Assembly (NCBI GenBank): GCA_025455865.1
Contig: JALOLS010000005.1
Location: 1 to 42,227, forward strand
Source: Thermoleophilia bacterium
GTDB taxonomy: Bacteria > Actinomycetota > Thermoleophilia > Miltoncostaeales > Miltoncostaeaceae
Direction of reading: 5' to 3'
DNA: 42,227 nt
Shown one piece after another: positions 8,637-42,227 of the stretch. The position numbers were made by a program, and so were the translations under genes. Numbering within the stretch: position 1 is the first letter of the stretch; each line of letters starts with the position of its first letter. The notes under the pieces were generated by a model. The model ran no database searches and was not told where the DNA came from. It saw only the letters and a list, made by a program, of their open reading frames with translations.

Positions 8637-9563
8637 ATGGGCGGTCCTGCCGAGGCGACGAGGCCGGTGCCGGCGACGCGGGCCGCGGTCCGGCACGTGC
8701 TCCTGGTGGCCAACGCGCGCGCGAGCGGGGTCCGGGATCCCGGGCAGGTGCGCGACGTCGCGGCGGTGCTGGGCGAGCAGGGCGCCGGCGTGGAGACGGT
8801 GGTCTGCGCCTCGGAGGAGGACCTCTCGGCGGCCTGGCACCGGGCCGACGGCCGCCGGGTGGTGCTGATGGGCGGGGACGGCAGCGTCCACGCCGCCGCC
8901 AACCTCCCCCCGCCGGCCCCCGAGGTCGCGCTGATCCCGGCCGGCCGCGCCAACAACATCGCCCACTGCCTCGGCATCCCGCTCGCCCCTTCCGCGGCCG
9001 CCCGGCTCGCGGTGCACGGGCCCGCCCGCCCGCTGGACCTCATCGACGCCCGGGGCGGGGGCCGCGTCGTGCGGGGGGTGGAGGGCGCGAGCGCGGGCTT
9101 CCTCGCGCTCGCGCGGGCCCGCTACCACGCCCGCAACTCCGCCGACACCCGCGCCGCCGTGCGGGCGGGCGTGGCCGCCCTCGCCCGCTTCCACCCCCTG
9201 GAGGTCTGGCTGACGCACGACGGCCACGGCGAGGATCTCTGGCTGGCCCAGCTCTTCGTGGCGAACATCGCCTGCTTCGGCACCGGTCTCCGGGTCGCGC
9301 CCTGGGCGGATCCGCGCGACGGGCTGCTGGAGGTGGTCGCGCTCGAGGCCGCCGGCCGGCGGTCGGTGCCGGTCATGCTCGGGCGGCTGCGGCGCGGGCG
9401 CGGCGCGCGGTGTCACGGCATACACGTGTGGCGGGCCCGGGAGGTGCTCGTCGCCACCCGCGGGGCCTCCCCGGTGATGGTCGACACCGACGACATGGGG
9501 ACCGGCCCGGTGGCGCTCGCCGCGCTGCCCGGCGCGCTCCGGCTCGTCGCCCCCGGGCCATGA
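8637..9563 (+). CDS. Diacylglycerol kinase-family (YegS/DgkB-like) lipid kinase
   Basis: The 308-aa protein has the DAGK catalytic fold: an N-terminal strand HVLLVANARASG, the nucleotide-binding GGDGSVHAAAN motif, LIPAGRANNIAHCLGIP, and a C-terminal segment with GLRVAPWADPRDGLLEVVAL. In the family, GGDG and GTGND-like loops bind ATP; here the second loop reads AGRANN. Such kinases phosphorylate diacylglycerol, sphingoid bases or related membrane lipids. ATG 8637 is 6 bases after GGAGG (8626-8630). Its stop overlaps the next ORF by ATGA, so lipid kinase and MFS-PAP2 protein are probably coexpressed. Confidence 0.85.
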   Translation: MGGPAEATRPVPATRAAVRHVLLVANARASGVRDPGQVRDVAAVLGEQGAGVETVVCASEEDLSAAWHRADGRRVVLMGGDGSVHAAANLPPPAPEVALIPAGRANNIAHCLGIPLAPSAAARLAVHGPARPLDLIDARGGGRVVRGVEGASAGFLALARARYHARNSADTRAAVRAGVAALARFHPLEVWLTHDGHGEDLWLAQLFVANIACFGTGLRVAPWADPRDGLLEVVALEAAGRRSVPVMLGRLRRGRGARCHGIHVWRAREVLVATRGASPVMVDTDDMGTGPVALAALPGALRLVAPGP

Positions 9564-12181: not shown

Positions 12182-12186
12182 GCACC

Positions 12187-12230
12187 GGGGGCGGTCGCGG
12201 GTCACGCCGGCGCGCGTGGCCCGCGCCCCC
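12187..12230. terminator. Bidirectional hairpin between convergent genes
   Basis: Arms GGGGGCG plus GCGGGTCACG (12187-12193, 12197-12206) pair with CGTGGCCCGC plus GCCCCC (12215-12230). One G-U pair, a 3-base bulge and an 8-base loop are present. It fills the 50-base space between the peroxiredoxin stop and the converging glycosyltransferase stop, so it probably terminates both. Confidence 0.65.
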
Positions 12231-12231
12231 C

Positions 12232-12906
12232 TCAGGGCCGCAGCGACGCGCCCACGACCCTGACCGAGTCCCGGACCGCCCGGAAGGCGCTCCGCTCGTC
12301 CCCGTAGATGGCCGGGATGGGCACCCACCCCACCCGGACCCCGCGTCGGAGGCACCGCTTGAGGTGCACGGTCTCGGCCTCGAAGCCGCCTCGGGGGAAC
12401 TCCACATCGTGCAGCGCGGCCCCCGCGAGCAGGCGCATCCCGCACTGGCAGTCACGCACCGGGCGTCCGGTCAGCGCGCCCAGCAGGCCGCTGGCCGCCA
12501 GATTGGCCAGCCGGCGCTCGACCGGCATCCGCCGGAGGTCGCCGAAGCGGTCGCCGACCACCAGGTCCACGCCGGCCCCGGCCGCGGCGATGAACCGCGG
12601 GACGGCGTCGACGGGGTGCTGGCCGTCGCCGTCGACCACCAGCACGGCGTCGGGCGGCCGTGCGCGGGCCAGCAGGTGGTCGATCCCCGCGCGCACGGCG
12701 GTCCCCTTCCCGGCGTTCCGCGGCAGCCGGAGCACCTGCGTGCCGGTGCGGGCCGCCCAGGCGCGGAGCTCGCCGGCGGCCGCCGGCGGCATGCCGTCGT
12801 CCACCACCAGCACCTCGCCCACGTGCCGCCGCAGGCCCTCGACCACCCCGGGCCGCGGTCGCTCGCGGTGGCACGGCACCACGGCCGTCACCCGCGCCGC
12901 CCTCAC
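12232..12906 (-). CDS. Family 2 glycosyltransferase
   Basis: The 224-aa protein begins VTAVVPCHRE, the first strand of a GT2 GT-A fold, with VLVVDDGMP, LPRNAGKGTAVRAGIDHLL and the DxD-type metal/nucleotide motif VVDGDGQHP. The pattern resembles dolichol/undecaprenyl-phosphate mannosyl or glucosyl transferases (GAGVDLVVGDRF, then DCQCGMRLL). It probably transfers a sugar from a nucleotide donor to a lipid carrier or envelope glycan. No membrane segment is visible. The GTG start at 12906 overlaps the stop of the upstream minus-strand phosphatase gene, so the two form an operon. Confidence 0.85.
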   Translation of the reverse strand: MRAARVTAVVPCHRERPRPGVVEGLRRHVGEVLVVDDGMPPAAAGELRAWAARTGTQVLRLPRNAGKGTAVRAGIDHLLARARPPDAVLVVDGDGQHPVDAVPRFIAAAGAGVDLVVGDRFGDLRRMPVERRLANLAASGLLGALTGRPVRDCQCGMRLLAGAALHDVEFPRGGFEAETVHLKRCLRRGVRVGWVPIPAIYGDERSAFRAVRDSVRVVGASLRP

Positions 12907-14642
12907 CGCGCGGGTGCGGGCACCGTCACCCTCAGGCTCATCAGCCGCTCGCCACGCCAGTTCCATCCGGAGAGCTCGACCTCGATCCGTGTGCCGCCCC
13001 GGTCCCGCACCCGCATGGTGCCGAACTGCCCGCTCCCCGGGAGGGCGCCCTCGCTGTAGGGGCCGCCCTTGACGCTCCCGTGGCGGTCGAGGGCGCCGGC
13101 GTGGGCCACCGGGAACCCGCCGGAGCGGGACGCGGAGTAGTCGCTGTGGCTGCCGTCGTCGATCGCGACCATGTGCGCGTCCCCGGCCAGCATGACCAGG
13201 GACACCCCGCTCCGGGCCACGGCGTCGGCGATCTCCCGCCGCTCCGCGGGATAGCCGGGCCAGCCGTCGGCGCCCCGCCTCGCCGGGCCGATCCACGGCA
13301 CGCTGCTCACCAGGACCACCAGCGGGTACCGGCCGCGGGCCGCGCGGATCTCACGGATGAGCCACTCCCGCTGGGCCCTGCCCAGGATCGTGCCGCCCGG
13401 ACCGGACGGGGTCCGCTGTGACCGCAGGTCGGCCACGAGCATCCGCACCCGGCCGAGCGTGAACGCCTGCGCGACCGGGCCGGTGCCGCGGTCCAGCGTG
13501 AGGGGGTGGTGCGGCACGAGCTCGCGGTAGACGGTGAGGGCGGCCTCGCGCGAGGGCGAGGATGCGTCGCCTCCGTCCGGCCCGTAGTCGTGGTCGTCCC
13601 ACATGTACGCGGCCGCGGCGGCGCGGGCCAGGGCCCCCTGCGCGGGCTGCCCGAGGGCGCCGTCGTACTGCTCGCGGAACAGGTCCGGGTCGTTGCGGGA
13701 GATGTCGCCGTAGAAGAGGTCGCCCGTCGTGACGTAGAGGTCCGGGCGCATGGCGCGGATCGCGTCGAACACCGCGCCGTTCGAGCGGGCGCGGGCGCAT
13801 GCGGCGAAGGCGACCAGGACGTCACCCGCCCCGCGGGGCATGGTCCGGAAGGTTCCGCGCAGCCGGTCGGGCACGCCGTCCACCTCCGCCGCGTAGTGGT
13901 GGCGCCGGGCCGGAGCCAGGCCGCGGACCCGGAACGACCAGCTCCGCCCGCCGTCCCCGCTCGCGGCGGGTCCGCGGGCGCGCGCGCCCTCCAGGTCCGC
14001 GGCGGGGGACACCAGCAGGCGGACCCGCGTGGCGGGCTCGCGCAGGCGCACGGTGACGCGGGCCCCGGCGTCGGTCACCGCGCCGGCCCAGAGCCAGCGG
14101 ACCGGGCCGGGGGGCGGCGCCGGCGTCGTCGACTCGGGGTGGGTCGGGCCGTAGGCGTACTCGTACGCGCTCCACGCCGCCACGCCGCCGAGCGCGAGCA
14201 GGCCGGCCAGGCCGGCGGTCAGGACCAGCAGCCAGGCGCGGCGATGCCCGCGGGCCCAGGCGGCGAGCATCTGCAGGACCCCGGGCACCAGGAACGCGGC
14301 GAAGGTGAGGAAGGCCGCCTCCGGCCGGTACTGGAACGCGGCGAGCACGCCGAGCGCCGCCGCGGCGAGCACCATCGTCGCCCCGCCGATGGCGGGGCGC
14401 CGGACGGCGAGGAGCGCGCCCAGCGCGACCACGGCGAGGAGGGCGATCTGGACCCGCTGCTGCAGGGCCACGGAGAGCAGCGGCCCCTCGGGCTGGCCGG
14501 GGATCCCCACCAGGAGCGCAAGGGCCGTGAAGGCGACGATCGCCGCGCCCGCCCACACGAGGCCGACCCGCCGGACGCGGCTCCAGCTCCGGGCCTCGGG
14601 GCCCGCCACGGATGGTGTCGTCGCCACGTGGTCTGCTCCCAT
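12903..14642 (-). CDS. PhoD-like metallophosphatase with N-terminal membrane domain
   Basis: The 579-aa protein starts with four or five hydrophobic helices (residues about 25-165) and continues with an extracytoplasmic PhoD/alkaline phosphatase D-like domain. That domain has a fibronectin-like lead-in and then metal-binding motifs: VTTGDLFYGDISRND, YMWDDHDYGPDGGD and MLAGDAHMVAIDDGSHSDY. PhoD-type enzymes cleave phosphodiesters or phosphomonoesters, such as cell-wall teichoic acid, outside the membrane. ATG 14642 is chosen because the conserved hydrophobic part starts about 20 residues later; a GTG at 14717 would add an Arg/Pro-rich leader. It is transcribed divergently from the CBS gene. 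Confidence 0.85.
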   Translation of the reverse strand: MGADHVATTPSVAGPEARSWSRVRRVGLVWAGAAIVAFTALALLVGIPGQPEGPLLSVALQQRVQIALLAVVALGALLAVRRPAIGGATMVLAAAALGVLAAFQYRPEAAFLTFAAFLVPGVLQMLAAWARGHRRAWLLVLTAGLAGLLALGGVAAWSAYEYAYGPTHPESTTPAPPPGPVRWLWAGAVTDAGARVTVRLREPATRVRLLVSPAADLEGARARGPAASGDGGRSWSFRVRGLAPARRHHYAAEVDGVPDRLRGTFRTMPRGAGDVLVAFAACARARSNGAVFDAIRAMRPDLYVTTGDLFYGDISRNDPDLFREQYDGALGQPAQGALARAAAAAYMWDDHDYGPDGGDASSPSREAALTVYRELVPHHPLTLDRGTGPVAQAFTLGRVRMLVADLRSQRTPSGPGGTILGRAQREWLIREIRAARGRYPLVVLVSSVPWIGPARRGADGWPGYPAERREIADAVARSGVSLVMLAGDAHMVAIDDGSHSDYSASRSGGFPVAHAGALDRHGSVKGGPYSEGALPGSGQFGTMRVRDRGGTRIEVELSGWNWRGERLMSLRVTVPAPAR

Positions 14643-14788
14643 CCCGAGGGTGCCGCACCTCGGCGCGCGACTCGCCCGGCTGGGCACGGGCGGGCGCCAC
14701 TTCGTGCCGGAACGCACGTTGCGCCGACGGCCGGCGCATGAGACACTGCCCGCCTCGACACAAACGGCACAAGAGACGGGGAGACGAG

Positions 14789-15190
14789 ATGCGCGTCCAG
14801 GACGGGATGAGCCCCATCAGCGCCATCGTCGGGCCGGAGCACACGCTCCGCCAGGCGGCGGTGAAGATGGTCCAGAACCGGACCGGCGCGGCCATCGTCA
14901 ACGACGGGAGCCTCCCCGGCCCCGGCGTCATCACCGAGCGGGACCTGCTGCACGCGATCGCCGAGGGCAAGGACCCGGCCGCGGAGCGGGTGGGCGACCA
15001 CATGACCGGCGATCTGATCACCGCGTCGCCCCGCTGGCCGCTGTCGGAGGCGGCCAGCCTGATGGTCAAGCATGGCGTGCGTCACGTGCTGGTCTTCGAC
15101 GACGCCGAGTTGGTGGGGGTCCTGTCCATGCGCGACGTGGTGCGGCTGGCCAACACGGCCGAGTGGACCGCGGCGCTCAGCGTGCGGTAG
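14789..15190 (+). CDS. CBS-domain pair protein
   Basis: The 133-aa protein consists of two CBS motifs only. The first ends GPGVITERDLLHAIAEGKDP and the second follows HMTGDLITASPRWPLSEAAS and ends LVGVLSMRDVVRL. CBS pairs (Bateman modules) sense adenosyl nucleotides such as AMP or ATP, or NAD, and regulate partners. ATG 14789 has GGGGAG at 14778-14783. No partner domain is fused, and a strong hairpin follows, so this is an independent unit. The link to envelope or motility genes is positional only. Confidence 0.88.
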   Translation: MRVQDGMSPISAIVGPEHTLRQAAVKMVQNRTGAAIVNDGSLPGPGVITERDLLHAIAEGKDPAAERVGDHMTGDLITASPRWPLSEAASLMVKHGVRHVLVFDDAELVGVLSMRDVVRLANTAEWTAALSVR

Positions 15191-16513: not shown

Positions 16514-17737
16514 ATGACCCAGGCACAGCTCGCGCCGCCGGTGGCGGCCGCGGGCCCGGGGACGCCCGTCAGGGCGGGACGCGCGGGGGATGAGCCCGCG
16601 GCGCCCGCGAGGGACGGGACCACCGACTTCCTGGCCGTCCTGGCCGGGCTGGTCGAGACCCTGGCTCCGCCGCCCGCCGAAGGCGCAGACACCGCAGCCG
16701 GACCCGCCCAAGGGGAGCTGCAGCAGGACCCCGCCGCCGACGCCGGCGGGGAGGCAGGGGAGGGCCTCGCGGGCCTCGTCGCGATCATCGCGCCGTCCGG
16801 GCTCGTCGCCCACGCCGGCCGCCACGCCACGGGCACCCCGGCCGAGGCCGCCGCGGGGTCCGCCCCGGTGCGGGGCGACCTGCCGGCCCAGGCCCAGGCC
16901 CCGGCGCACGCCGCGGTGATGGTGCTGGACGCGCCCGAGGCCGCCCCGGCGGGCCCGGGCACCCCGGCGCCCACCCCGCACGCGGCCGTGGTGCGCTTCG
17001 AGATCCGGCTCCCGGCCGAGGCCCCCGCGGTCCCGGCCACCCCGGCGCCCACCCCGGCGCCGGCGGCCCCGGCCGCGGCCGATGTGGACATCGTGGCCCC
17101 GGTCACGCCGCCGGCCACGCCGGCCCCGGCCGCCGATCCGGCCACCGCCGCCCCGGCGCCGGCCCCCGCCGCGCCGGCGACCCCGCCGGCCGCCGCCCCG
17201 GCGCCGGCCGACGACGCGCCCGCCCCGCCGGCGCCCGCCCCGGCCGCCGCGCCGGCCCCGGCCGCCGCCACCGCGCCCGCCCCGGCCCCCGCGGCCGCCG
17301 AGCGGCCGCATGCGCCCCGGGACGTGGCCCAGGACATCGAGATGCGGCTGCGGGTGTGCGTGCGCGACCACGGCCGGGTGCTCAAGCTCTCGCTGCGGCC
17401 CCCGGAGCTCGGGAACCTGCAGATCACCGTGGTCCGCCACGAGGGCACCCTGCAGGCCCAGATCGTCGCCGAGCGGCCCGAGGCCGTGCGGCTGCTCGAG
17501 CGGGCGCTCCCACAGCTGCAGGACCTGCTCACCGACCGCGGTCTCTCCCTCGGCGCGTTCGACGTCGCCTACCGCGACGACCGGCGCGATGCCGGTGCCG
17601 AGCCGGGCGGCCACGCCTGGGGACGGCGGGGCCGCGAGGACGGCGAGCGCGTGGGGCCGGCGGTCGCCGCGCCCGTGCCGGTGACCACCCCGGTCCGCGA
17701 CCAGGCCGGCGCCGACGGCGTCGACCTCCTGGCGTGA
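16514..17737 (+). CDS. fliK: Flagellar hook-length control protein FliK
   Basis: The 407-aa protein has a long low-complexity Ala/Pro region (residues about 150-265) typical of FliK rulers. The conserved C-terminal Flg_hook domain follows: VLKLSLRPPELGNLQITVV, then GTLQAQIVAERPEAVRLLERALPQL and LTDRGLSL. FliK measures hook length and switches FlhB from rod/hook to filament substrates. ATG 16514 is preceded by GGGGAAGGTGAGG. flgD follows 10 bases downstream. Confidence 0.92.
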   Translation: MTQAQLAPPVAAAGPGTPVRAGRAGDEPAAPARDGTTDFLAVLAGLVETLAPPPAEGADTAAGPAQGELQQDPAADAGGEAGEGLAGLVAIIAPSGLVAHAGRHATGTPAEAAAGSAPVRGDLPAQAQAPAHAAVMVLDAPEAAPAGPGTPAPTPHAAVVRFEIRLPAEAPAVPATPAPTPAPAAPAAADVDIVAPVTPPATPAPAADPATAAPAPAPAAPATPPAAAPAPADDAPAPPAPAPAAAPAPAAATAPAPAPAAAERPHAPRDVAQDIEMRLRVCVRDHGRVLKLSLRPPELGNLQITVVRHEGTLQAQIVAERPEAVRLLERALPQLQDLLTDRGLSLGAFDVAYRDDRRDAGAEPGGHAWGRRGREDGERVGPAVAAPVPVTTPVRDQAGADGVDLLA

Positions 17738-22027: not shown

Positions 22028-22048
22028 CCACCGGGGCGACGGGGCTAC
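22024..22048. terminator. Shared hairpin overlapping two convergent stop codons
   Basis: GTAGCC plus CCG (22024-22029, 22031-22033) pair with CGG plus GGCTAC (22040-22048), with one bulged A and a 6-base loop. The fliL stop (22025-22027) and the minus-strand kinase stop (22045-22047) are both inside the stem. A compact bidirectional terminator is likely, though no T-run is present. Confidence 0.45.
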
Positions 22049-22452
22049 GCGCCGATCAGCGGCCCGTGCTGCATCTCGATGCGCACGATGGTGCCGCGGC
22101 CGTTGCTCTCGATCTCCATGTGGTCCACCAGTTGGCGGACGATCCACAATCCCCGCCCGCGCCGGTTCAGGGGCGCCGGCGGGTGCGTGCGCGCCACGTC
22201 GACCCACTGGAAGCCGTCGCCGTGGTCGAGCACCTCGATCTCCAGCCGGCCGTCCACCCGGGCGGTCACCACGATCGGCGGCCGGCCGTGCTCCTGGGCG
22301 TTGGCGATCAGCTCGTCCAGGGCGAGGGCCAGGTCGCCGGCCCGGTCGGCGTAGCCGCCCCGCTCGGCCAGCTCCGAGACGGCACGCCGCACGGCGCCGA
22401 TCTCGGCGGGATCTGCGGTCAGGGCCGCCCGGAAGTGCTCGCGGTGCTCCAT
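22045..22452 (-). CDS. RsbW/SpoIIAB-like anti-sigma serine kinase (HATPase_c_2)
   Basis: The 135-aa protein is a single GHKL ATPase domain. The N-box is ALDELIANAQEHG, the G1 box EVLDHGDGFQWV and the G2 box RRGRGLWIVRQLVDHMEI. This is the layout of RsbW/SpoIIAB-type switch kinases, which bind sigma factors and phosphorylate STAS antagonists, and of the many actinobacterial relatives. It sits on the opposite strand between fliL and fliM, the only interruption of the stator-to-switch run. No STAS, PP2C or sigma gene is adjacent, so its partner is unknown. No good ribosome site precedes ATG 22452. Confidence 0.82.
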   Translation of the reverse strand: MEHREHFRAALTADPAEIGAVRRAVSELAERGGYADRAGDLALALDELIANAQEHGRPPIVVTARVDGRLEIEVLDHGDGFQWVDVARTHPPAPLNRRGRGLWIVRQLVDHMEIESNGRGTIVRIEMQHGPLIGA

Positions 22453-29935: not shown

Positions 29936-30541
29936 TCAGGCCGCCCGGGCCTCCTCGGCGGCCCGGCGGGCGGCGGTGAGGAGCCCGTGGTCCTGGCGGG
30001 CCCGGCGCAGGCCCCACCAGCAGGCGACCCCGATGAGGTCCGCCAGGCCCTGCACGAGCCACAGGCGCGTGCTCTGGAGCACCTGGGCCTCGAGCAGCCC
30101 GGTGGCGATGTTGACCGTCGCGGTCACCGAGAGGTCGCCGATCTCCGGGAGGTCCTTGCCGACCCCCTGGCCCGGCCGCAGGCCGCCGTCGCGCATGCGG
30201 ACCGCGCCGACGCTGGCCATCGGGCCGAGCGCGGCGTCGACCGCCACCACGACCGGGCGCTCGTCCGCGCCCAGGACCGGCCCCAGCCGATCGGCCAGGT
30301 TCAGCGCGTGGAGGGGGTCCTCCAGCGTGCCGACGACCTCCTCGGTGGCGCAGCCGAGGCGCACGAGCTTCTGGCCGACCAACGGGCCGAGCGCGTCGCC
30401 GGTGGATCGGTCGGTGCCGATGCAGGCGAACACCACGCCGCGCTCGGGCCCCCCGCGCACGAGCAGCTCATGGTGCACCGCGGCCGACAGGCGGGCCAGC
30501 CCGGCGGGGTCGTCCTTGGGGATGACGAGCGGCTGCTCCAC
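29936..30541 (-). CDS. yyaC: YyaC-like putative sporulation protease
   Basis: The 201-aa protein matches Bacillus YyaC (TIGR02841): FACIGTDRSTGDALGPLVGQ, VGTLEDPLHALNLAD, VAVDAALGPMASVGAV, GQGVGKDLPEIGDLSVTATV, and LQSTRLWLVQGLADLI. The family has a fold related to Gpr and hydrogenase-maturation proteases and is associated with sporulation, but its substrate is unknown. GTG 30541 is the only reasonable start. AGGAG abuts it, so the true initiation site is uncertain. It is divergent from cheA and its 5' end lies next to the cheA promoter-like element. Confidence 0.85.
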   Translation of the reverse strand: MEQPLVIPKDDPAGLARLSAAVHHELLVRGGPERGVVFACIGTDRSTGDALGPLVGQKLVRLGCATEEVVGTLEDPLHALNLADRLGPVLGADERPVVVAVDAALGPMASVGAVRMRDGGLRPGQGVGKDLPEIGDLSVTATVNIATGLLEAQVLQSTRLWLVQGLADLIGVACWWGLRRARQDHGLLTAARRAAEEARAA

Positions 30542-34225: not shown

Positions 34226-35398
34226 GTGTCATCAACCGCCCGCGCCGGCGCCCGCCCCGCCCGGCGGGCCCGCCCCGCCGGGGCCCAGAGCGCCGAGGCC
34301 CTCGTCCGCGAGCTGTTCGGCCTGGCCGGCGTGCGGATCGGCGGCTCCGGGCCCGGGGACATCGTGGTGCACGACCCCCGCTTCTACGCCCGGCTGGTCC
34401 GCCACGCCTCGCTCGGGCTGGGCGAGTCCTACATGGACGCCTGGTGGGACTCAGACGCCGTCGACGTGCTGATCGAGAAGCTGGTGCGCGCCGGGCTCCG
34501 CGAGCGCATCCGCGGCGGCGCGCGGCTTCGCCTGATGGCGGCGCGGGCCTTCCTGCTCAACCTGCAGTCGCCCGCCCGCGCCCGGCGCGCGGTGGCCGCC
34601 CACTACGACATCGGCAACGACCTGTACACGCGGATGCTCGACCCGCGGATGGTCTACACCTGCGCCTACTGGCGCGACGCGGACACCCTGGCGGCGGCCC
34701 AGGAGGCCAAGCTGGAGCTGGTGTGCCGCAAGCTGGGCCTGGAGCCCGGCATGCGGGTGCTGGACCTGGGCTGCGGCTGGGGCGGCTTCGCCGCCTGGGC
34801 GGCCGAGCGCCACGGCTGCTCGGTGGTCGGGGTCACCCTCTCGCGCGAGCAGCATGAGCTCGGCCGGCGCATGTGGGGCCACCTGGACGTGGACCTGCGC
34901 CTGGCGGACTACCGCGCGGTGCGCGGCACCTTCGACCGGGTGGTCTCCATCGGGATGATGGAGCACGTGGGGCCCCGCAACCACCGGACGATGATGGAGG
35001 TGGTGCGCCGGTCCCTGGGGCCGGAGGGGGTTGCGCTGGTCCACACGATCGCGAGCAACGTGACCCGCCGTCACACCACGCCCTTCGTGCAGCGCTACGT
35101 GTTCCCCGACGCCGTCTCGCCGTCCCTCGCGCAGATCGGCCGGGCGGTCGACGGGCTGCTGGTCCTTGAGGACCTCCAGAACATCGGGCCCGACTACGAC
35201 CGCACGCTCATGGCCTGGTGGGAGAACGTGGAGGCGGCCCGGGGCGACCTGCCGGCGCGCTACGACGAGCGCTTCCTGCGGATGTGGCGGTTCTACCTGC
35301 AGGGCGCGGCCGGCATGGCCCGGGCGCGCGACGGGCAGCTCTTCCAGATGGTGCTCACCATCCCCGGGCGCGCCCAGCCCCCCTGCCGGGTGAGCTGA
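34226..35398 (+). CDS. Cyclopropane-fatty-acid-synthase family methyltransferase
   Basis: The 390-aa protein has the CFA family layout: ESYMDAWWDSDAVDVLIEKL, YDIGNDLYTRMLDPRMVYTC, the SAM-binding MRVLDLGCGWGGFAAWAAE, GVTLSREQHELGRR, IGMMEHVGPRNHRTMMEVV, and the C-terminal FYLQGAAGMARARDGQLFQM. CFA synthases add a methylene from SAM to unsaturated membrane lipids. GTG 34226 is 7 bases after GAGGAG (34213-34218). An ATG at 34136 lies in the palindromic element and would add a non-conserved basic leader. It is not a motility gene by family and interrupts che and flh genes. Confidence 0.9.
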   Translation: MSSTARAGARPARRARPAGAQSAEALVRELFGLAGVRIGGSGPGDIVVHDPRFYARLVRHASLGLGESYMDAWWDSDAVDVLIEKLVRAGLRERIRGGARLRLMAARAFLLNLQSPARARRAVAAHYDIGNDLYTRMLDPRMVYTCAYWRDADTLAAAQEAKLELVCRKLGLEPGMRVLDLGCGWGGFAAWAAERHGCSVVGVTLSREQHELGRRMWGHLDVDLRLADYRAVRGTFDRVVSIGMMEHVGPRNHRTMMEVVRRSLGPEGVALVHTIASNVTRRHTTPFVQRYVFPDAVSPSLAQIGRAVDGLLVLEDLQNIGPDYDRTLMAWWENVEAARGDLPARYDERFLRMWRFYLQGAAGMARARDGQLFQMVLTIPGRAQPPCRVS

Positions 35399-35513: not shown

Positions 35514-36617
35514 ATGGACGGCGCGACTCGGGAGACCGGGCCCCGCCTCGTGTCCAAGAGCGACCGCACCGAGAAGGCCACCCCCAAGAAGCGCGACGAG
35601 GCGCGCAAGCGGGGGCAGGTCGCGCGCAGCCAGGAGGTCAACGTCGCCCTCTCGCTGCTCGCCGCCTTCGGCGTGCTGGCGGCCCTCGGCGCCGGGCTGG
35701 TGGCGACCTTCAGCACGATCATGGCCTCGGGCCTGGCCTCGGCGGGGGACGGCCCGGGGCTCACCCCCCCCGACGCCTTCACCCGCCTCATGGACGCGGT
35801 GTGGACGATCCTCCGGGTCACCGCGCCGTTCGCGATCACCGGGGCGCTGGTCGGCGTGCTCGCGTCGGCCCTGCAGGTCAAGCCGGGGATCACCACCGAG
35901 GTCCTGAAGCCGCGGTTCTCGGTCATCAACCCCATCAAGGGGTTCCCGCGGCTGTTCTCGCTGCGGTCCGGCGTCCAGCTCGTGCGCGACGTCATCAAGG
36001 TCACGGTCATCGGCGCGGTCGCCTACGTGACGGTGAGCTCCGGCATGGACGAGATCGGGCGCCTGACCGGCGCGGGGCCGGGGGAGATCCTCTCGGTGAC
36101 CGCCGGCCTGGTCCTGCGCATCGGATTCGCCGTGGCCGCGGCCTACGTGGTGATCGCCATCGCCGACCTGCTCTTCCAGCGGTGGCAGTTCGAGCGCGAC
36201 CTGCGCATGACCAAGGACGAGGTCAAGCGGGAGGCCAAGGAGGCGGACATCAGCCCCGAGGTCAAGGGGCAGCTCAAGCGCCGCCAGCGCGACATGGCGA
36301 CCCGGCGGATGATGGCCGACGTCCCCCAGGCGGACGTGGTCATCACCAACCCGACCCACTACGCGGTGGCGCTCCGCTACGCGCGGGCGCTGCCGGCGCC
36401 CCGGGTGGTCGCCAAGGGGGCCGACCGGGTGGCCCTGCGCATCCGCGAGGTGGCCACCGAGCACGGCATCGCGATCCACGAGGACCCGCCGCTCGCCCGG
36501 TCGCTGTACGCGGCGGTCGAGGTCGGCGGGTACGTGCCCGAGGACGCCTTCGCCGCGGTGGCCGAGGTGCTCGCCTACGTCTACCGCGCGACCGGGCGCG
36601 AGCCCGCGGCGGCCTAG
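35514..36617 (+). CDS. flhB: Flagellar export switch protein FlhB
   Basis: The 367-aa protein begins KSDRTEKATPKKRDEARKRG, has four membrane helices, and carries the autocleavage motif NPTH at residues 279-282 (VITNPTHYAVALRY). The C-terminal domain contains VVAKGADRVALRIREVATEH and EDPPLARSLYAAVEVG. Cleavage after Asn279 permits the change from hook to filament substrates under FliK control. GTG 35550 is an alternative start that would remove a 12-residue leader. flhA follows 12 bases later. Confidence 0.95.
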   Translation: MDGATRETGPRLVSKSDRTEKATPKKRDEARKRGQVARSQEVNVALSLLAAFGVLAALGAGLVATFSTIMASGLASAGDGPGLTPPDAFTRLMDAVWTILRVTAPFAITGALVGVLASALQVKPGITTEVLKPRFSVINPIKGFPRLFSLRSGVQLVRDVIKVTVIGAVAYVTVSSGMDEIGRLTGAGPGEILSVTAGLVLRIGFAVAAAYVVIAIADLLFQRWQFERDLRMTKDEVKREAKEADISPEVKGQLKRRQRDMATRRMMADVPQADVVITNPTHYAVALRYARALPAPRVVAKGADRVALRIREVATEHGIAIHEDPPLARSLYAAVEVGGYVPEDAFAAVAEVLAYVYRATGREPAAA

Positions 36618-36629
36618 GGCCCCTCGCCG

Positions 36630-38744
36630 ATGACGACCAACCTGGCATCGGCCGAGCTCAAGCCGGGCGCCCCGAGCTTCGTCGGCAAGCTGCTCGGCCA
36701 CGGCGACCTGCTCATCGCCGGCCTGGTGGTGGGGATCGTCGTGATGATGGTCGTCCCGCTCCCCAAGCCGCTGCTGGACGTCCTGCTCACGCTGAACATC
36801 TCGGCGGCGCTCGCGGTGCTGATGGCGACCTTCTACACGAAGGAGCCGCTGCAGTTCTCGATCTTCCCCAGCCTGCTCCTGGTCGCGACCCTGTTCCGGC
36901 TGGCGCTGAACATCTCGAGCACCCGGCTGATCCTGCTCGACGGCGACGCCGGCGAGGTCATCGAGGCGTTCGGCAACTTCGTGGTCGGCGGCAACGTGGT
37001 CGTCGGCCTCATCGTCTTCATGATCCTCATCGTGATCCAGTTCGTGGTCATCACGAACGGCGCCGGGCGCGTGGCCGAGGTCGCCGCGCGGTTCACCCTC
37101 GACGCCATGCCCGGCAAGCAGATGGCGATCGACGCCGACCTCAACGCCGGCACGATCACCGACGAGGAGGCTCGCCGCCGCCGCGAGTCGATCAGCAAGG
37201 AGGCGGACTTCTACGGGGCGATGGACGGCGCCTCGAAGTTCGTCAAGGGCGACGCCATCGCCGCGGTGCTCATCGTGGCCATCAACCTGGTCGGCGGCCT
37301 GGCGATCGGGATCTTCCAGCAGGGCATGAGCGTCGGCGAGGCGGCCCACCACTTCTCGCTCCTGACCGTGGGCGAGGGCCTGGTCGCCCAGATCCCCGCC
37401 CTGCTCATCTCCACCGCGACCGGCATCATCGTCACCCGGGCGGCGGGGGAGTCCAACCTCGGCACCGACCTGACCCGCCAGATCGTCGCCCAGCCCCGGG
37501 CGCTCATGATCACCGGCGTCGTGGTCGTGGGGCTCGGGCTCATGCCCGGGCTGCCCAAGATCCCGTTCTTCCTGATCGGCGGCGTGGTCATCGCGCTGGC
37601 CGTCGCCCTGCGCAACGGCGAGAAGAAGGAGCAGCAGGCGGCCGAGGTGGCCGAGTCCACCGAGCTCGCCACCCGCCCGCGCGAGCCGGAGAACGTGGCC
37701 GCGCTGCTCCCCCTGGACCCGCTCGAGCTCGAGATCGGCTACGGGCTCATCCCGCTGGTGGACGAGAGCGACGGCGGCGACCTGCTGGCCCGCGTGGCGA
37801 TGGTGCGCCGCCAGATGGCCACCGAGCTCGGTCTCTCGCTCGCGCCGATCCGCCTGCGCGACAACATCCAGCTCGCCTCGCACGAGTACGCGGTGAAGAT
37901 CCGCGGGGTGGAGGTGGCCCGCGGCGCCCTGGAGCCCGGACAGCTCCTGGCCATGAACCCGGGCACGGCGACCGCGCCGCTCGACGGCCTGCCCACCACC
38001 GAGCCCGCCTTCGGGCTGCCGGCGGTGTGGATCGGCGAGGCGCAGCGCGAGCAGGCCGAGGTCGCCGGCTACACGGTGGTCGACTCGGCCTCGCTCATCG
38101 TCACGCACCTGTCGGAGGTCATCCGCCACCACGCCGCCGACCTGCTGGGCCGCCAGGACACCCGGGCGCTCCTCGACGGGCTCAAGGAGCGGATGCCCGC
38201 CGCGGTGGAGGAGCTGGTGCCCGACCTGATGAGCGTGGGCGAGGTCCACCGGGTGCTGCAGTCGCTCCTGCGCGAGGCGGTCCCGATCCGCGACCTGGTC
38301 ACCGTGCTGGAGACCCTGGGCGACAAGGCCCGGGTCACCAAGGACACCGGCCTGCTCGCCGAGTACTGCCGCCAGGCGCTCGCCCGGGCCATCTGCGTGC
38401 GCTTCATCGACGCCGACGAGACGCTCCGCGCGGTCACCCTCGACCCGACGATCGACCGGGAGATCGCCGAGTCGGTGGCCCGCACCGAGGACGGCGGCAC
38501 GGCCATCGCCATGGACCCGGCGCGCGCGTCGGCCGTGCTCGACGCCCTGGTCGCCGAGGTCAACCGGGTGACCGGGCTCGGCCACCAGGCCGTGGTGCTG
38601 TGCTCGGGCGCCTGCCGGCGGCACCTCAAGGCCCTCTCCAGCCACGCCCTGCCCACGCTGACCGTCCTCTCCTACAACGAGATCCTCCCCACGGTGAGGA
38701 TCGAGCCGATCGGCCTGGTCACGCTGGCCCAGGTCCCCGCATGA
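36630..38744 (+). CDS. flhA: Flagellar export gate protein FlhA
   Basis: The 704-aa protein has about eight N-terminal membrane helices. The FHIPEP-type segment spans roughly residues 90-190 (PSLLLVATLFRLALNISSTR, ITNGAGRVAEVAARFTLDAM, PGKQMAIDADLNAG). The cytoplasmic FlhAC domain includes LELEIGYGLIPLVD, RRQMATELGLSLAPIRLRDN and VLSYNEILPTVRIEPIG. FlhAC forms the nonameric docking ring for chaperone-substrate complexes. ATG 36630 is 12 bases after flhB. Confidence 0.97.
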   Translation: MTTNLASAELKPGAPSFVGKLLGHGDLLIAGLVVGIVVMMVVPLPKPLLDVLLTLNISAALAVLMATFYTKEPLQFSIFPSLLLVATLFRLALNISSTRLILLDGDAGEVIEAFGNFVVGGNVVVGLIVFMILIVIQFVVITNGAGRVAEVAARFTLDAMPGKQMAIDADLNAGTITDEEARRRRESISKEADFYGAMDGASKFVKGDAIAAVLIVAINLVGGLAIGIFQQGMSVGEAAHHFSLLTVGEGLVAQIPALLISTATGIIVTRAAGESNLGTDLTRQIVAQPRALMITGVVVVGLGLMPGLPKIPFFLIGGVVIALAVALRNGEKKEQQAAEVAESTELATRPREPENVAALLPLDPLELEIGYGLIPLVDESDGGDLLARVAMVRRQMATELGLSLAPIRLRDNIQLASHEYAVKIRGVEVARGALEPGQLLAMNPGTATAPLDGLPTTEPAFGLPAVWIGEAQREQAEVAGYTVVDSASLIVTHLSEVIRHHAADLLGRQDTRALLDGLKERMPAAVEELVPDLMSVGEVHRVLQSLLREAVPIRDLVTVLETLGDKARVTKDTGLLAEYCRQALARAICVRFIDADETLRAVTLDPTIDREIAESVARTEDGGTAIAMDPARASAVLDALVAEVNRVTGLGHQAVVLCSGACRRHLKALSSHALPTLTVLSYNEILPTVRIEPIGLVTLAQVPA

Positions 38745-38769: not shown

Positions 38770-40149
38770 ATGCAGGTGAGGCAGTTCACCGGCGCGACCA
38801 TCGACGAGGTCCTGCCGAAGATCCGCGAGGAGCTCGGCGAGGACGCGCTCATCCTCCAGACCAAGCGCGTCGTGCGCGGGGGGATCGGTGGGTTCTTCGG
38901 CCGTGAGGGCATCGAGGTCACCGCCGCCGAGGGGCCGTCGCACGAGGAGCTCGCGACGCTGAACGCCGAGGCCGCCGCCCCGGTCCCGGCCGCCGCCGAG
39001 GAGGACGAGCCGCCGTTCGCGCGGGCGCTCGCGGCCCGGCTGCAGGCCGCCGCCGAGGCCGAGGCCGGGCTCCCCGCGCCGGCCGAGGCCGGCCCGGGCA
39101 CCTACGCCCCGCCCCGCGGGGCCCCGGCGCCGTTCGCCGCCGGCGGCGACGAGCGGACCCAGGCCATCGCGGCCGCCGCCCGGGCCGCGGTCCGCGAGGC
39201 CGCCGACCGGGCCGCCGACCCGCTCGCCGCGGCCCGCGCCGCCGTCCGCCCGGCCGTCGCCGGCCGCAGCGCGGCCACCGTGCCGGCGCCCGGGGGCTTC
39301 GCCCCGGGGCTCCCGGCCGGGCCCACGCCCGCCCCGGCCGAGCCCGCCCCGGCGCCGCCCGCCACCCCCGCGGCCGCCCGGCTGCCCGCCGCCCTGCGCG
39401 GGGTGCGGGCCGAGCTCGCCGCCGCCGGCATCCACCCGCGCTACCTGGACCCGATGCTCACGGCGGTGGCCCGCCAGGCCCTGCCGTTCGCGGGCGAGGG
39501 CGAGGATCCGCGCGAGGTCGTGCGCGAGTGGCTCTCCGAGCACCTGCCGGTGGCCCGCGACGCCCGGCCGCGCGGCAAGGGCCACACCGTCGTCCTGGTC
39601 GGCCAGACCGGCGTGGGCAAGTCGACGACCGCGGTCAAGCTCGCCGCCCGCCACCGCGACGCCGGCCAGGAGGTCGCCCTTGTCGCGGCCGGGCCCGGGC
39701 CGCACGACACCCTGCGCGCGCTCGCCGCCCGCCAGGGCATCGAGGTGGTCGACGCCCCCGACGCCGCCGCCCTCGCCGCGGCCCGGGAGGCCCTCGCCGC
39801 CCGCGATCTGGTGGTGGTCGACACCGCCGGCCGCTCGCACCTGTGCCTGGAGGAGATGGAGGCGCTGCGGGACCTGCTGGGCCCGGCCCGGGCCGAGGAG
39901 GTGCACCTGGTCGTGCCGGTGGCCGTGCCCCTGGACGACGTGGGCGACATGGCCCGCCGGTTCCGGATGGCCGGGGTCAACCGGGTGACCATGACCAAGC
40001 TCGACGAGACCGGCCACCACGGCAACCTGGTCAACGTGCCGATGCGCCTCGGCAAGCCGCTCGCCTACCTGGCCGACGGGGCCGGCGTCCCCGGCGCCCT
40101 CGTCCCGGCCCGGGCGCGGCGCATCGCCGGCCGGCTGCTGGCCGGCTGA
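38770..40149 (+). CDS. flhF: SRP-type GTPase FlhF
   Basis: The 459-aa protein has an N-terminal B domain (MQVRQFTGATIDEVLPKIRE, ALILQTKRVVRGGIGGFFGR), a long Ala/Pro linker (residues about 75-200), and an NG domain. The NG domain has P-loop VGQTGVGKSTTAVKLAARH near residue 278, DTAGRSHLCLEEM and TKLDETGHHGNLVNV. FlhF sets flagellar number and position, normally with the ATPase FlhG. No flhG lies downstream here; a PilZ gene follows instead. ATG 38770 is 25 bases after flhA. Confidence 0.95.
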   Translation: MQVRQFTGATIDEVLPKIREELGEDALILQTKRVVRGGIGGFFGREGIEVTAAEGPSHEELATLNAEAAAPVPAAAEEDEPPFARALAARLQAAAEAEAGLPAPAEAGPGTYAPPRGAPAPFAAGGDERTQAIAAAARAAVREAADRAADPLAAARAAVRPAVAGRSAATVPAPGGFAPGLPAGPTPAPAEPAPAPPATPAAARLPAALRGVRAELAAAGIHPRYLDPMLTAVARQALPFAGEGEDPREVVREWLSEHLPVARDARPRGKGHTVVLVGQTGVGKSTTAVKLAARHRDAGQEVALVAAGPGPHDTLRALAARQGIEVVDAPDAAALAAAREALAARDLVVVDTAGRSHLCLEEMEALRDLLGPARAEEVHLVVPVAVPLDDVGDMARRFRMAGVNRVTMTKLDETGHHGNLVNVPMRLGKPLAYLADGAGVPGALVPARARRIAGRLLAG

Positions 40150-40156
40150 GGCCCGG

Positions 40157-40873
40157 GTGACCCGCCCCCGCCCCCGGCGCCTTCCGCCCGCCTGCCCGCT
40201 CCCCCCGGCGGGGGGCGAGGTCTGGCTGGACGACCTGCCCGGCGGGCCGCTCGGCACCACGGTGATCGAGGTGTCCGGGGACGCGGCCCTGCTCGAGCGC
40301 CCGCGCCTGGGCGGGGCGCCGGCGCCCCTGGACCCCGGCCGGCGCGTGGTCGTGAGCTACCGCCTGCGCGACGTGCCGTGCGAGGTGACCGCGGAGGTCC
40401 AGGCGCCCGCGGACGGGCCGGTGCGGCTGCGGTTCACCGGCGATCCCATCCGGCTGCAGCGCCGGCAGGCCGTGCGGGTGCCGGTGCAGCTCATGGTCCA
40501 CGCCGAGCCCGACGTCGTGCCCCTGAACCGCCCCGGCGCCGACCTCGCGGCGCTCGGCGGCATCACCGAGAACCTCTCGGCCACCGGGGTGATGCTGCGC
40601 CTGGACCGCAGCCTGGCGAGCGGGACGCGGGCGTCCCTGGCGATCGAGTGCGGCGGGCGCACCGGCAGCGTTCACGTGACCGGCCGGGTCGTCCGATGCC
40701 ATGAGGGAGGGACCTCCGGCCGGGGCCGCGCGCGGCCGTACCGGGTGGCCTTCGCCTTCCTCGACCTCGAGCGGGCCCAGGAGGACCGCCTCGTGCACTA
40801 CCTCTTCGAGCGCCAGCGCGAGCTCCGCCACCGTGACCTCGAGCACGGCCGCGTCCGGGATCCGGAGCGCTGA
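40157..40873 (+). CDS. PilZ-domain (YcgR-like) c-di-GMP receptor
   Basis: The 238-aa protein has a YcgR-N-like beta domain (residues about 20-95: VVVSYRLRDVPCEVTAEV) and a C-terminal PilZ domain. Both c-di-GMP motifs are present: arginines in QRRQAVRVPV and ITENLSATGVMLRLD for the (D/N)xSxxG part. YcgR proteins slow the flagellar motor on c-di-GMP binding. GTG 40157 lies 7 bases after flhF. The next gene overlaps its stop by 1 base. Linkage to flhF supports a motility role. Confidence 0.87.
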   Translation: MTRPRPRRLPPACPLPPAGGEVWLDDLPGGPLGTTVIEVSGDAALLERPRLGGAPAPLDPGRRVVVSYRLRDVPCEVTAEVQAPADGPVRLRFTGDPIRLQRRQAVRVPVQLMVHAEPDVVPLNRPGADLAALGGITENLSATGVMLRLDRSLASGTRASLAIECGGRTGSVHVTGRVVRCHEGGTSGRGRARPYRVAFAFLDLERAQEDRLVHYLFERQRELRHRDLEHGRVRDPER

Positions 40874-41205
40874 TGGCCAAGCCGGGCGACAAGGGACGGG
40901 ACCGGGGCGCGGCGGCGAAGGACGCGGCGGCCGGCCCGAGCGCGGTCGCGGTGTGGGCCGGGCGGGCCCGCGCGATCGGCGCCCTCATCGGCTTCGCGGT
41001 CGCGTTCTGGGTGAGCCGTCGCGCGGGCATCGGGACCACCGACGCGGCGCTGCGGGGCCTGCTCGGCGCGGTCGCGTTCTCGCTGGTCACCTGGTTCGCG
41101 GCGCTCCTGGTCATCGGTGGCCTGGTCCGCACCGCCGCCATGCGTCCGGCCCCGCCCGAGGCGCCCGCGCCCCCGGCCGGGGCGGGCACGCCGGTGGGCG
41201 GGTAG
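40873..41205 (+). CDS. Uncharacterised small membrane protein (110 aa)
   Basis: I do not recognise the family. The N-terminus is charged (Lys/Asp/Arg/Gly, residues 1-25). Two hydrophobic helices follow at about 31-47 (ARAIGALIGFAVAFWV) and 61-86 (LLGAVAFSLVTWFAALLVIG), then a Pro/Ala-rich tail. ATG 40873 overlaps the last base of the PilZ stop. Tight packing with flhF and pilZ suggests one operon and a membrane role near the motor or export system. This is inference. Confidence 0.72.
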   Translation: MAKPGDKGRDRGAAAKDAAAGPSAVAVWAGRARAIGALIGFAVAFWVSRRAGIGTTDAALRGLLGAVAFSLVTWFAALLVIGGLVRTAAMRPAPPEAPAPPAGAGTPVGG

Positions 41206-41219
41206 CGGGAGCCTGACCC

Positions 41220-41513
41220 GTGCCGCCGCGTCCCATCGACGGGCTCCAGCAGGCCGCCACCGACCAGGCGACCCGCATCGCCCAGATCGCCGAGCAGCGC
41301 CACCTGCAGGCCGAGCTCATCGCGGCGGCCCACCAGCGCGCCGACCGCGACCGGGCCGGCCGGGTCCAGGACCCGGCGCGCTCCTCGCGCGGCGACCTGC
41401 GCCTGCCCGGCGAGGGCGAGCCCCACGAGGGGCGCGGCCGCCGCCGGCGGCGTGAGGATCCGCCCCCGGAGGACGACGGGCCCACGGGGCGCACGCTGGA
41501 CGTGACCGCCTGA
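41220..41513 (+). CDS. Uncharacterised charged soluble protein (97 aa)
   Basis: The 97-aa product has an N-terminal helix (IDGLQQAATDQATRIAQIAE, continuing QRHLQAELIAAAHQ) and a C-terminal half made mostly of Arg, Glu, Asp, Gly and Pro, likely disordered. The helix is heptad-like and could be a short coiled coil. There are no membrane segments or cysteines. The GTG start at 41220 is 14 bases after the membrane protein gene, and the stop overlaps the next ATG by 1 base. The family is not recognised. Confidence 0.7.
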   Translation: MPPRPIDGLQQAATDQATRIAQIAEQRHLQAELIAAAHQRADRDRAGRVQDPARSSRGDLRLPGEGEPHEGRGRRRRREDPPPEDDGPTGRTLDVTA

Positions 41514-42058
41514 TGGCCACCGCCCCGGCCCCGGGCTACCTCGTCGTGCGGGTGGACGACGCCGGCACCTACACCGGCGGCCTCATGGTCACCGACGAGC
41601 ACGGCCTGCCGCTGGACTTCCGCTACACCGACCCGGTCACCCCGACCCGCCTGCAGCGCGCCCTCTACGGCGGGGTGCTCGACCGCTACCTGCGCACCGA
41701 GGTCGTGCTGCGCACGCTGGTCGGGGCCCTCGAGCGGCGGCCCACCCTCATCCTCACCGAGGACGAGGCGATGCTGGACGCCGAGGCCGCCGGGGTGCCG
41801 GTGGCCCTGGTCAGCCCCGCGAACGTGGCGCCGATCGGCGTCCCGGGGACCCGCCAGGACGACCCCTCGGGCGCCATCGTGCTCCAGGTGGCCGACGACG
41901 AGTCGCCGCTGCGCCTGCGGGTGGACCCCGGCGACGGCCCCACCCGGGACCGGGTCGCCGAGGACCTGGTGCGCCTGGGGCGCGGCATGCAGGTGCGCGA
42001 GCCGGCCGAGCGGGTCCACCAGGCCCTGGACCTGATCGCCGCCGGGGAGGCCGACTAG
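41513..42058 (+). CDS. Conserved-looking uncharacterised protein (181 aa)
   Basis: The 181-aa soluble protein has a distinctive N-terminal part: GYLVVRVDDAGTYTGGLMVT, then DEHGLPLDFRYTDPVTPTRL and QRALYGGVLDRYLRTEVVL. A middle segment, RPTLILTEDEAMLDAEAAGVP, and an acidic C-terminal domain follow. The pattern suggests an alpha/beta fold with a conserved RYT-P motif, but I cannot name a function. ATG 41513 overlaps the previous stop by 1 base, and the next ORF begins 3 bases after its TAG. It is probably part of the flhF-pilZ operon. Confidence 0.75.
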   Translation: MATAPAPGYLVVRVDDAGTYTGGLMVTDEHGLPLDFRYTDPVTPTRLQRALYGGVLDRYLRTEVVLRTLVGALERRPTLILTEDEAMLDAEAAGVPVALVSPANVAPIGVPGTRQDDPSGAIVLQVADDESPLRLRVDPGDGPTRDRVAEDLVRLGRGMQVREPAERVHQALDLIAAGEAD

Positions 42059-42061
42059 CCG

Positions 42062-42227
42062 GTGGCGGTGGCGCTCCCCCGGGAGCTCCTGCGGGTGCTC
42101 GACCGCCTGGCCGGGCGCCGGGCCGCGCACGCCGTGCCCCCGCCGTGCACCGGCACCCACGCCGTGCCGCCGGCCCGGGTGGCCGCCGGCGCCCTCGCCG
42201 CGATCGCCGCGCCGCCCGCCGCCCGGG
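42062..42227 (+). CDS. 5' part of an unidentified gene, cut by the window edge
   Basis: A GTG at 42062 opens a frame that stays open to the window end (55 codons). It starts MAVALPRELLRVLDRLAGRR and continues with Ala/Pro-rich sequence. It begins 3 bases after the preceding gene, consistent with an operon continuing beyond the window. There is too little sequence for a family assignment. Confidence 0.55.
   Translation, partial: MAVALPRELLRVLDRLAGRRAAHAVPPPCTGTHAVPPARVAAGALAAIAAPPAAR

Follow-up and report, generated by a model that had tools for sequence, protein, structure and literature searches.

The window analyzed here, the whole stretch of DNA under study, is a single complete contig of 42,227 nucleotides (G000:C135:1-42227; 75% GC) from a Thermoleophilia bacterium assembly of 186 contigs. 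It harbors a flagellar gene cluster in which several gene names (e.g., FliS, FlgB, MotA, and CheD) are our assumptions from reading by eye. The features relevant to this study are as follows.

16514..17737, forward strand: fliK, with a product ending in GVDLLA (PF02120, E 2.8e-17; tail)
35514..36617, forward strand: flhB, export gate (clusters with FlhB frames of relatives; NPTH self-cleavage site present)
36630..38744, forward strand: flhA (PF00771, E 1.8e-273, at G000:C135:36735-38696)
38770..40149, forward strand: flhF, SRP-type GTPase (PF00448 SRP54, E 2.5e-24, above the cut-off)
40157..40873, forward strand: PilZ protein (PF07238, E 1.3e-16, 61.2 bits versus a cut-off of 22.5; RxxxR and NxSxxG)
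40873..41205, forward strand: orf3, small membrane protein of 110 aa (11-member alignment; hydropathy)
41220..41513, forward strand: orf4, small charged protein of 97 aa ending in LDVTA (composition; tail statistics)
41496..41510, forward strand: codons of the FliK-like C-terminal tail LDVTA of orf4 (read from the frame; tail statistics)
41513..42058, forward strand: orf5, soluble protein of 181 aa with a predicted EndoV-like (RNase H) fold (model and alignment)
42062..42227 (window end), forward strand: first 55 residues of orf6, GTG start, partner of orf5 (BLASTP; synteny)

The product of flhF, which adjoins flhA, matches TIGR03499 FlhF as its top NCBIfam family (E 6.5e-37, 128 bits; cut-off, 174). 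The PilZ protein scores 14.9 bits against the YcgR-type N-terminal domain PF12945 (cut-off, 23), and we take its RxxxR and NxSxxG motifs to be those of a c-di-GMP receptor. A preliminary description of this DNA had noted four tightly packed frames downstream of flhF and pilZ, the last of them truncated, and both points hold. A gap of 7 bases separates flhF from the PilZ gene, which overlaps orf3 by 1 base (TGATG); orf3 and orf4 are 14 bases apart, orf4 and orf5 overlap by 1 base, and orf5 and orf6 are separated by 3 bases. Because the window is the whole contig and ends there, orf6 is cut. In GC content by codon position, the complete frames follow the same pattern as the flagellar genes. Their description as uncharacterized was also borne out, as Pfam and NCBIfam scans (E up to 1) returned nothing meaningful for orf3 to orf6 and no literature on these genes was found among open-access papers. 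The same description had remarked that they occupy the position expected for flhG, and indeed no MinD/ParA-type gene lies in the slot after flhF: no Pfam match to a MinD/ParA P-loop domain was detected in orf3 to orf6, and the PF01656 matches found in 12/12 genomes are all located elsewhere, except for weak ones within flhF itself. PF01656 is too general a family to name an FlhG from these matches.

Several other features of the cluster can be recorded. A nonflagellar block (8667-15190) interrupts it between the apparent fliI and fliJ genes, and encodes a diacylglycerol-kinase type protein, an 873-aa MFS-PAP2-peroxiredoxin frame, a glycosyltransferase, a PhoD-like protein, and a CBS protein. 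A small HATPase_c_2 protein (PF13581, E 7.4e-21), anti-sigma-type by family, is encoded on the opposite strand at 22045-22452, just before fliM. A gene for a protein of DUF1256, the family of a spore-protease-like protein (29936-30541; PF06866, E 3.1e-39), is also found on the opposite strand, within the chemotaxis part of the cluster. A cyclopropane-synthase-type methyltransferase gene (34226-35398; PF02353, E 4.2e-77) lies between a cheD-like gene and flhB.

The arrangement of the genes following flhF was compared among relatives, in whose loci genes were called with a simple custom script. Clustering of the fetched loci yielded 11 members for orf3 and 11 for orf5, beyond chance. The order flhF-(pilZ)-orf3 is maintained in 13/13 Thermoleophilia-class loci in which the contig extends beyond flhF, and the full order in this class is flhF-(pilZ)-orf3-orf4-orf5-orf6, an exception being one genome (G048), in which orf4-orf5-orf6 is found on contig C60 together with fliK, and flhF is found on contig C44. 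In the family of the window, the gene after orf6 encodes an L,D-transpeptidase of the YkuD family that carries a PG_binding_4 domain (L013, 6384-7397, and equivalents); this transpeptidase cluster is present in 8/8 loci that show orf6 there, with Pfam run on the L013 copy. Outside the class the surroundings differ. A part of the Armatimonadota harbors the order orf4-orf5-orf6 followed by a DUF6115-like gene, with orf5 two genes ahead of it, and in Vampirovibrionales a FliA-like sigma gene is followed by orf5 and orf6 and then mostly by kinase-like and regulator-like genes. In Armatimonadota without orf5, genes for a small membrane protein and for a sigma factor come straight after flhF in L127 and L129, with one extra gene after flhF in L126 and L130; L133 and L134 have PilZ after flhF, and in L128 the genes are those for FlhA, PilZ, a small protein, and the sigma factor. 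In L127, L128, and L129, a small protein encoded after the sigma gene ends in HLIDEVA, HVLDVRV, or HIIDETA. In the Bacillota, a similar small protein is encoded between sigD and swrB. The differing neighborhoods thus point to a shared flagellar region after flhF in which orf5-orf6 is one option. The fixed linkage to flhF that had been assumed therefore applies within the Thermoleophilia class (flhF-(pilZ)-orf3 in 13/13), but not to orf4-orf5-orf6 of G048 or to the Vampirovibrionales and the part of the Armatimonadota described above.

The PilZ gene is a variable component of this region, being present between flhF and orf3 in 8/13 loci and absent in 5 (L021, L022, L025, L041, and L043). The preliminary description had considered that the genes might act in c-di-GMP control together with the PilZ receptor. 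The PilZ gene of the window is adjacent and retains both motifs, but in the loci of Armatimonadota and Vampirovibrionales orf5 has no PilZ match next to it. As PilZ is not a fixed member of the module, a role of orf3 to orf6 in c-di-GMP control appears extremely improbable, and this part of the earlier proposal finds little support.

The homologs of orf5 fall into two classes. Among 47 distinct loci, 35 belong to a flagellar class and 12 to a second class, where distinct loci were tallied by hand since several positions had been retrieved more than once. Flagellar-class orf5 is followed by orf6 in 33/35 distinct loci, and the remaining two (the window and L045) end with their contig. Second-class orf5 is the gene directly before an SNF2 helicase gene in 11/12 loci (L056 to L058, L135 to L141, L143, and L144), with L058 at a contig end. 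Members of the second class were found in Planctomycetaceae, in other Actinomycetota, and in some Armatimonadota, partly in genomes without FlhA. In the orf5 tree, a weakly supported branch (73/60) separates its sequences from the others. This class may represent a separate two-gene system.

Matches to orf6 were found beside orf5 in 44/44 cases, although in two a single short called frame intervenes; for L042 and L047 to L049, the orf6 frame that was called comprises the C-terminal part alone. The piece of orf6 in the window is identical to the orf6 of L014 at 14/27 residues (BLASTP; 52%, E 1e-5), a comparison that covers 27 residues only. A structural model of orf6 is good only at about residues 106 to 201, and among PDB chains it found no convincing counterpart (Foldseek best E, 0.12; VIA best Z, 3.6); the absence of a convincing PDB match does not show a new fold.

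The flagellar link of the module is strong. Among 61 genomes of relatives, including that of the window, a genome search found orf5 in 11 and FlhA (PF00771) in 14, and all 11 orf5 genomes are among the 14; these and the following FlhA counts leave out G221, G304, and G418. The three FlhA-positive relatives without orf5 are G002 and G013, whose contigs end in flhF, and G050, in which an orf4-like gene and then a flagellin-like one come after flhF-orf3. In Armatimonadota, an orf5 match is present in 20/121 genomes, of which 13 are strong (E 3.1e-65 or better) and 7 are weaker. A PF00771 match is found in all 13 genomes with a strong (flagellar-class) match and in 5/7 of those with a weaker one, compared with 74/121 overall, that of G436 being a sub-cut-off FlhA fragment only. 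In Vampirovibrionia, all 14 orf5 genomes (14/97) are among the 69 with PF00771, and all are among the 17 whose best PF00771 match is 849 bits or higher. For loci from a named collection, 24/25 genomes have a PF00771 match, 23 of them above the cut-off. Some genomes were handled apart in the orf5 counts: G060 has a partial match (residues 56 to 118), G536 and G554 matched over the first 39 residues only and were later assigned to the SNF2 class, and G524 is unclassified because its orf5 was missed by the gene caller. Fisher values for these co-occurrences overstate the case, as genomes within a clade are not independent, and a PF00771 match is not proof of a flagellum, as this family also includes injectisome proteins. 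The suggestion that the genes form an accessory module of the flagellum is supported by these data, orf5 being confined among relatives to FlhA-positive genomes (11/11). Homologs mainly in nonflagellated genomes or away from flhF were to count against it; the flagellar class proved FlhA positive wherever tested, but some of its loci do lie away from flhF. Our results indicate that the genes after flhF belong to a conserved flagellar gene module.

The product of orf3 had been described as a two-helix membrane protein of 110 aa. One helix (residues 63 to 81) exceeds the hydropathy threshold; the second is weak, although two are seen in some relatives. The protein resembles the small membrane proteins encoded after flhF or PilZ in orf5-negative Armatimonadota in size and place, but the profile probability is only 2.3%, which does not establish homology. 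The position of orf3 raises the main rival to the reading that we favor below. The module may place or count flagella via FlhF, with orf3 and the following proteins recruiting FlhF in the manner of gammaproteobacterial FipA. FipA recruits FlhF and is itself a membrane protein, with its gene located behind the flhA-flhF-flhG-fliA-che operon (PMC11620751). The presence of orf3 after flhF, with or without PilZ, in every one of the 13 continuing loci fits such a role, as does the gene after orf6 in the Armatimonadota locus L049, whose product matches DUF6115 above the cut-off and DUF2802, the FipA domain, below it. However, Pfam detects neither DUF2802 nor DUF6115 in orf3, whose clear helix is central and not N-terminal, and in Vampirovibrionales orf5-orf6 are found beside fliA, away from flhF. 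We regard the FlhF-positioning reading as rather unlikely.

The location beside a sigma gene brings up another possibility, namely, that the module controls late flagellar gene expression via the flagellar sigma factor. Orf5 directly follows a gene with sigma regions 2, 3, and 4 in Vampirovibrionales, often overlapping it, and is succeeded there by orf6 and by kinase-like and response-regulator-like genes. The close spacing of flhF, a small membrane protein gene, and a sigma gene in orf5-negative Armatimonadota points in the same direction. In the window, orf3 to orf6 have no sigma gene as a neighbor and no FlgM-like feature was seen, and we consider this role distinctly unlikely.

The most prominent feature of orf4 is its C terminus. 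The protein, probably disordered judging from its composition, can barely be aligned outside a C-terminal [LIV]-D-x-x-A tail, and the Asp of this tail is the single invariant column in an alignment of 15 copies. We examined 28 loci for a small frame that closes with [LIV]-D-x-x-[AV] no more than 36 bases from the orf5 start. Such a frame is present in 13/13 Thermoleophilia and 5/11 Armatimonadota loci, and the other 10 loci, none of them from Thermoleophilia, are without it; no orf4 was found beside orf5 in the Vampirovibrionales loci or in 6/11 Armatimonadota loci. A strict form of the tail, [LIV]D[LIVA]x[AVI], terminates 18 of 677 distinct complete proteins from the window and fetched loci, comprising 16 orf4-type proteins, the FliK of the window, and one 343-aa protein in L120. 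The same pattern has a frequency of 0.001 in internal five-residue windows; it was drawn up after the tails had been inspected, and the orf4 copies are related by descent. Among 24 complete FliK tails (that of L103 is cut by a contig end and left out), position -4 is D in 15, S in 5, N in 3, and W in 1, and 12/24 fit the strict pattern. The orf4 and FliK tails do not vary together, since orf4 retains its D in at least six genomes in which FliK has none (G048, G437, G438, G439, G443, and G445). No Pfam match to the Flg_hook domain PF02120 was detected in orf4 from the window, L049, or L043, and the L128 copy gave only an unrelated sub-cut-off match.

The last five residues of FliK are reported to act on FlhB and to flip the export switch (PMC13344023). 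Caulobacter FliK ends in LDIRI; loss of this tail removes the effect of FliK overexpression on motility, and the Lon-dependent degradation of FliK stops when the last five residues are absent (PMC8545394). This raises the possibility that the orf4 tail is a protease signal, in which case orf4 would be a timing protein with a short lifetime or would serve as a Lon decoy. The tail is of the same sequence kind as the LDIRI needed for degradation (PMC8545394). By analogy with Caulobacter such a function is conceivable, but we consider it unlikely. It is not exclusive of a switch function, since the same residues also serve the latter in FliK.

A structural model of orf5 was obtained with AlphaFold at high confidence (mean pLDDT, 93.7; pTM, 0.89). 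The top-scoring structures in the PDB are those of Endonuclease V proteins (Foldseek E, 6.5e-6), with a VIA Z of 14.6 over 167 aligned residues (rmsd, 3.0) for the mouse enzyme (5aoy); behind them rank a functionally uncharacterized protein of Archaeoglobus fulgidus and Piwi proteins. Sequence comparisons gave no comparable signal. No PF04493 match was obtained for orf5 of the window (Pfam E up to 1) or for the L056 and L046 copies, a sequence search for solved relatives returned nothing credible (best E, 0.56), and hhalign gave probabilities of 0.3% against one EndoV and 18% over 25 columns against two others. As the profile comparison is not significant, the relationship to EndoV is one of fold comparison. 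Among 27 orf5 sequences, acids are conserved at positions 35 (27/27), 84 (24/27), and 163 (27/27), and the RYT-P motif noted previously corresponds to a conserved F-x-x-T-x-P stretch located where strand 3 ends (residues 36 to 41). In strand 1 (residues 7 to 14), no column is acidic in 60% or more of these sequences, and an EndoV-type active site is therefore unlikely. An invariant Tyr (Y52) is located near what we take, by eye, to be the position of the EndoV glutamate. A different metal site is possible.

These features bear on whether orf5 is an active DNA or RNA nuclease that is merely encoded in flagellar operons. The modeled fold, the three conserved acids, and the occurrence of the sister class beside an SNF2 helicase in 11/12 loci are compatible with this. 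The strand 1 result, the invariant Y52, and the lack of a PF04493 match argue against it, and we consider nuclease activity very unlikely. With no conserved acid in strand 1, orf5 is probably not an Endonuclease V nuclease.

The flagellar export switch is usually explained by FliK and FlhB. We tentatively favor the reading, plausible although short of probable, that orf3 to orf6 constitute an accessory module of flagellar export in which orf4 uses its FliK-like tail. In the mechanism that we infer, orf4 would present this tail to the partner of the FliK tail, the C-terminal domain of FlhB, and would thereby delay, prime, or reset the hook-to-filament export switch. The EndoV-like orf5 together with orf6 would form a protein-binding scaffold and not a nuclease, and orf3 would bring the module to the membrane, next to FlhB, FlhA, and FlhF. 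Against this reading, orf4 and orf5 are separable: an orf4-like gene occurs without orf5 in G050, and orf5 was found without orf4 in other loci. A more specific version, which we consider doubtful, would have orf4 as a second, ruler-free tail protein that carries the FliK switch tail in trans on FlhB, with orf5, its EndoV fold turned to protein binding, and orf6 reading or holding the tail and reporting the state of the switch. A small conserved protein with only the working end of FliK would allow a direct test of that end without the ruler, and an EndoV-fold protein with flagellar and helicase-linked classes would provide a clean case of a nuclease-like fold being reused.

Comparison with known systems reveals partial likenesses. 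Orf5 resembles Endonuclease V (PF04493) in its predicted fold, but it lacks both a PF04493 match and a conserved strand 1 acid, has a Tyr near the Glu position as judged by eye, and is found in a flagellar context. As in the cases of FipA (DUF2802) and SwrB, small membrane-linked genes stand at the end of the flhA-flhF cluster, and the Armatimonadota carry a DUF6115/DUF2802-like gene after orf6; orf3, however, has no such domain, and the window contains no such gene before its end. Orf4 can also be likened to HrpB2 of the Xanthomonas type III secretion system, a small protein whose C terminus matters and which binds the FlhB paralog HrcU (PMC3052322), although HrpB2 belongs to a pathogenicity secretion system and not to a flagellum. 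Finally, orf4-type proteins differ from FliK in their size (42 to 104 aa), in having no ruler part, and in the absence of PF02120 in those scanned, but orf4 shares with FliK a tail of the [LIV]-D-hydrophobic-x-A kind at the free carboxyl end and a place in the same flagellar cluster.
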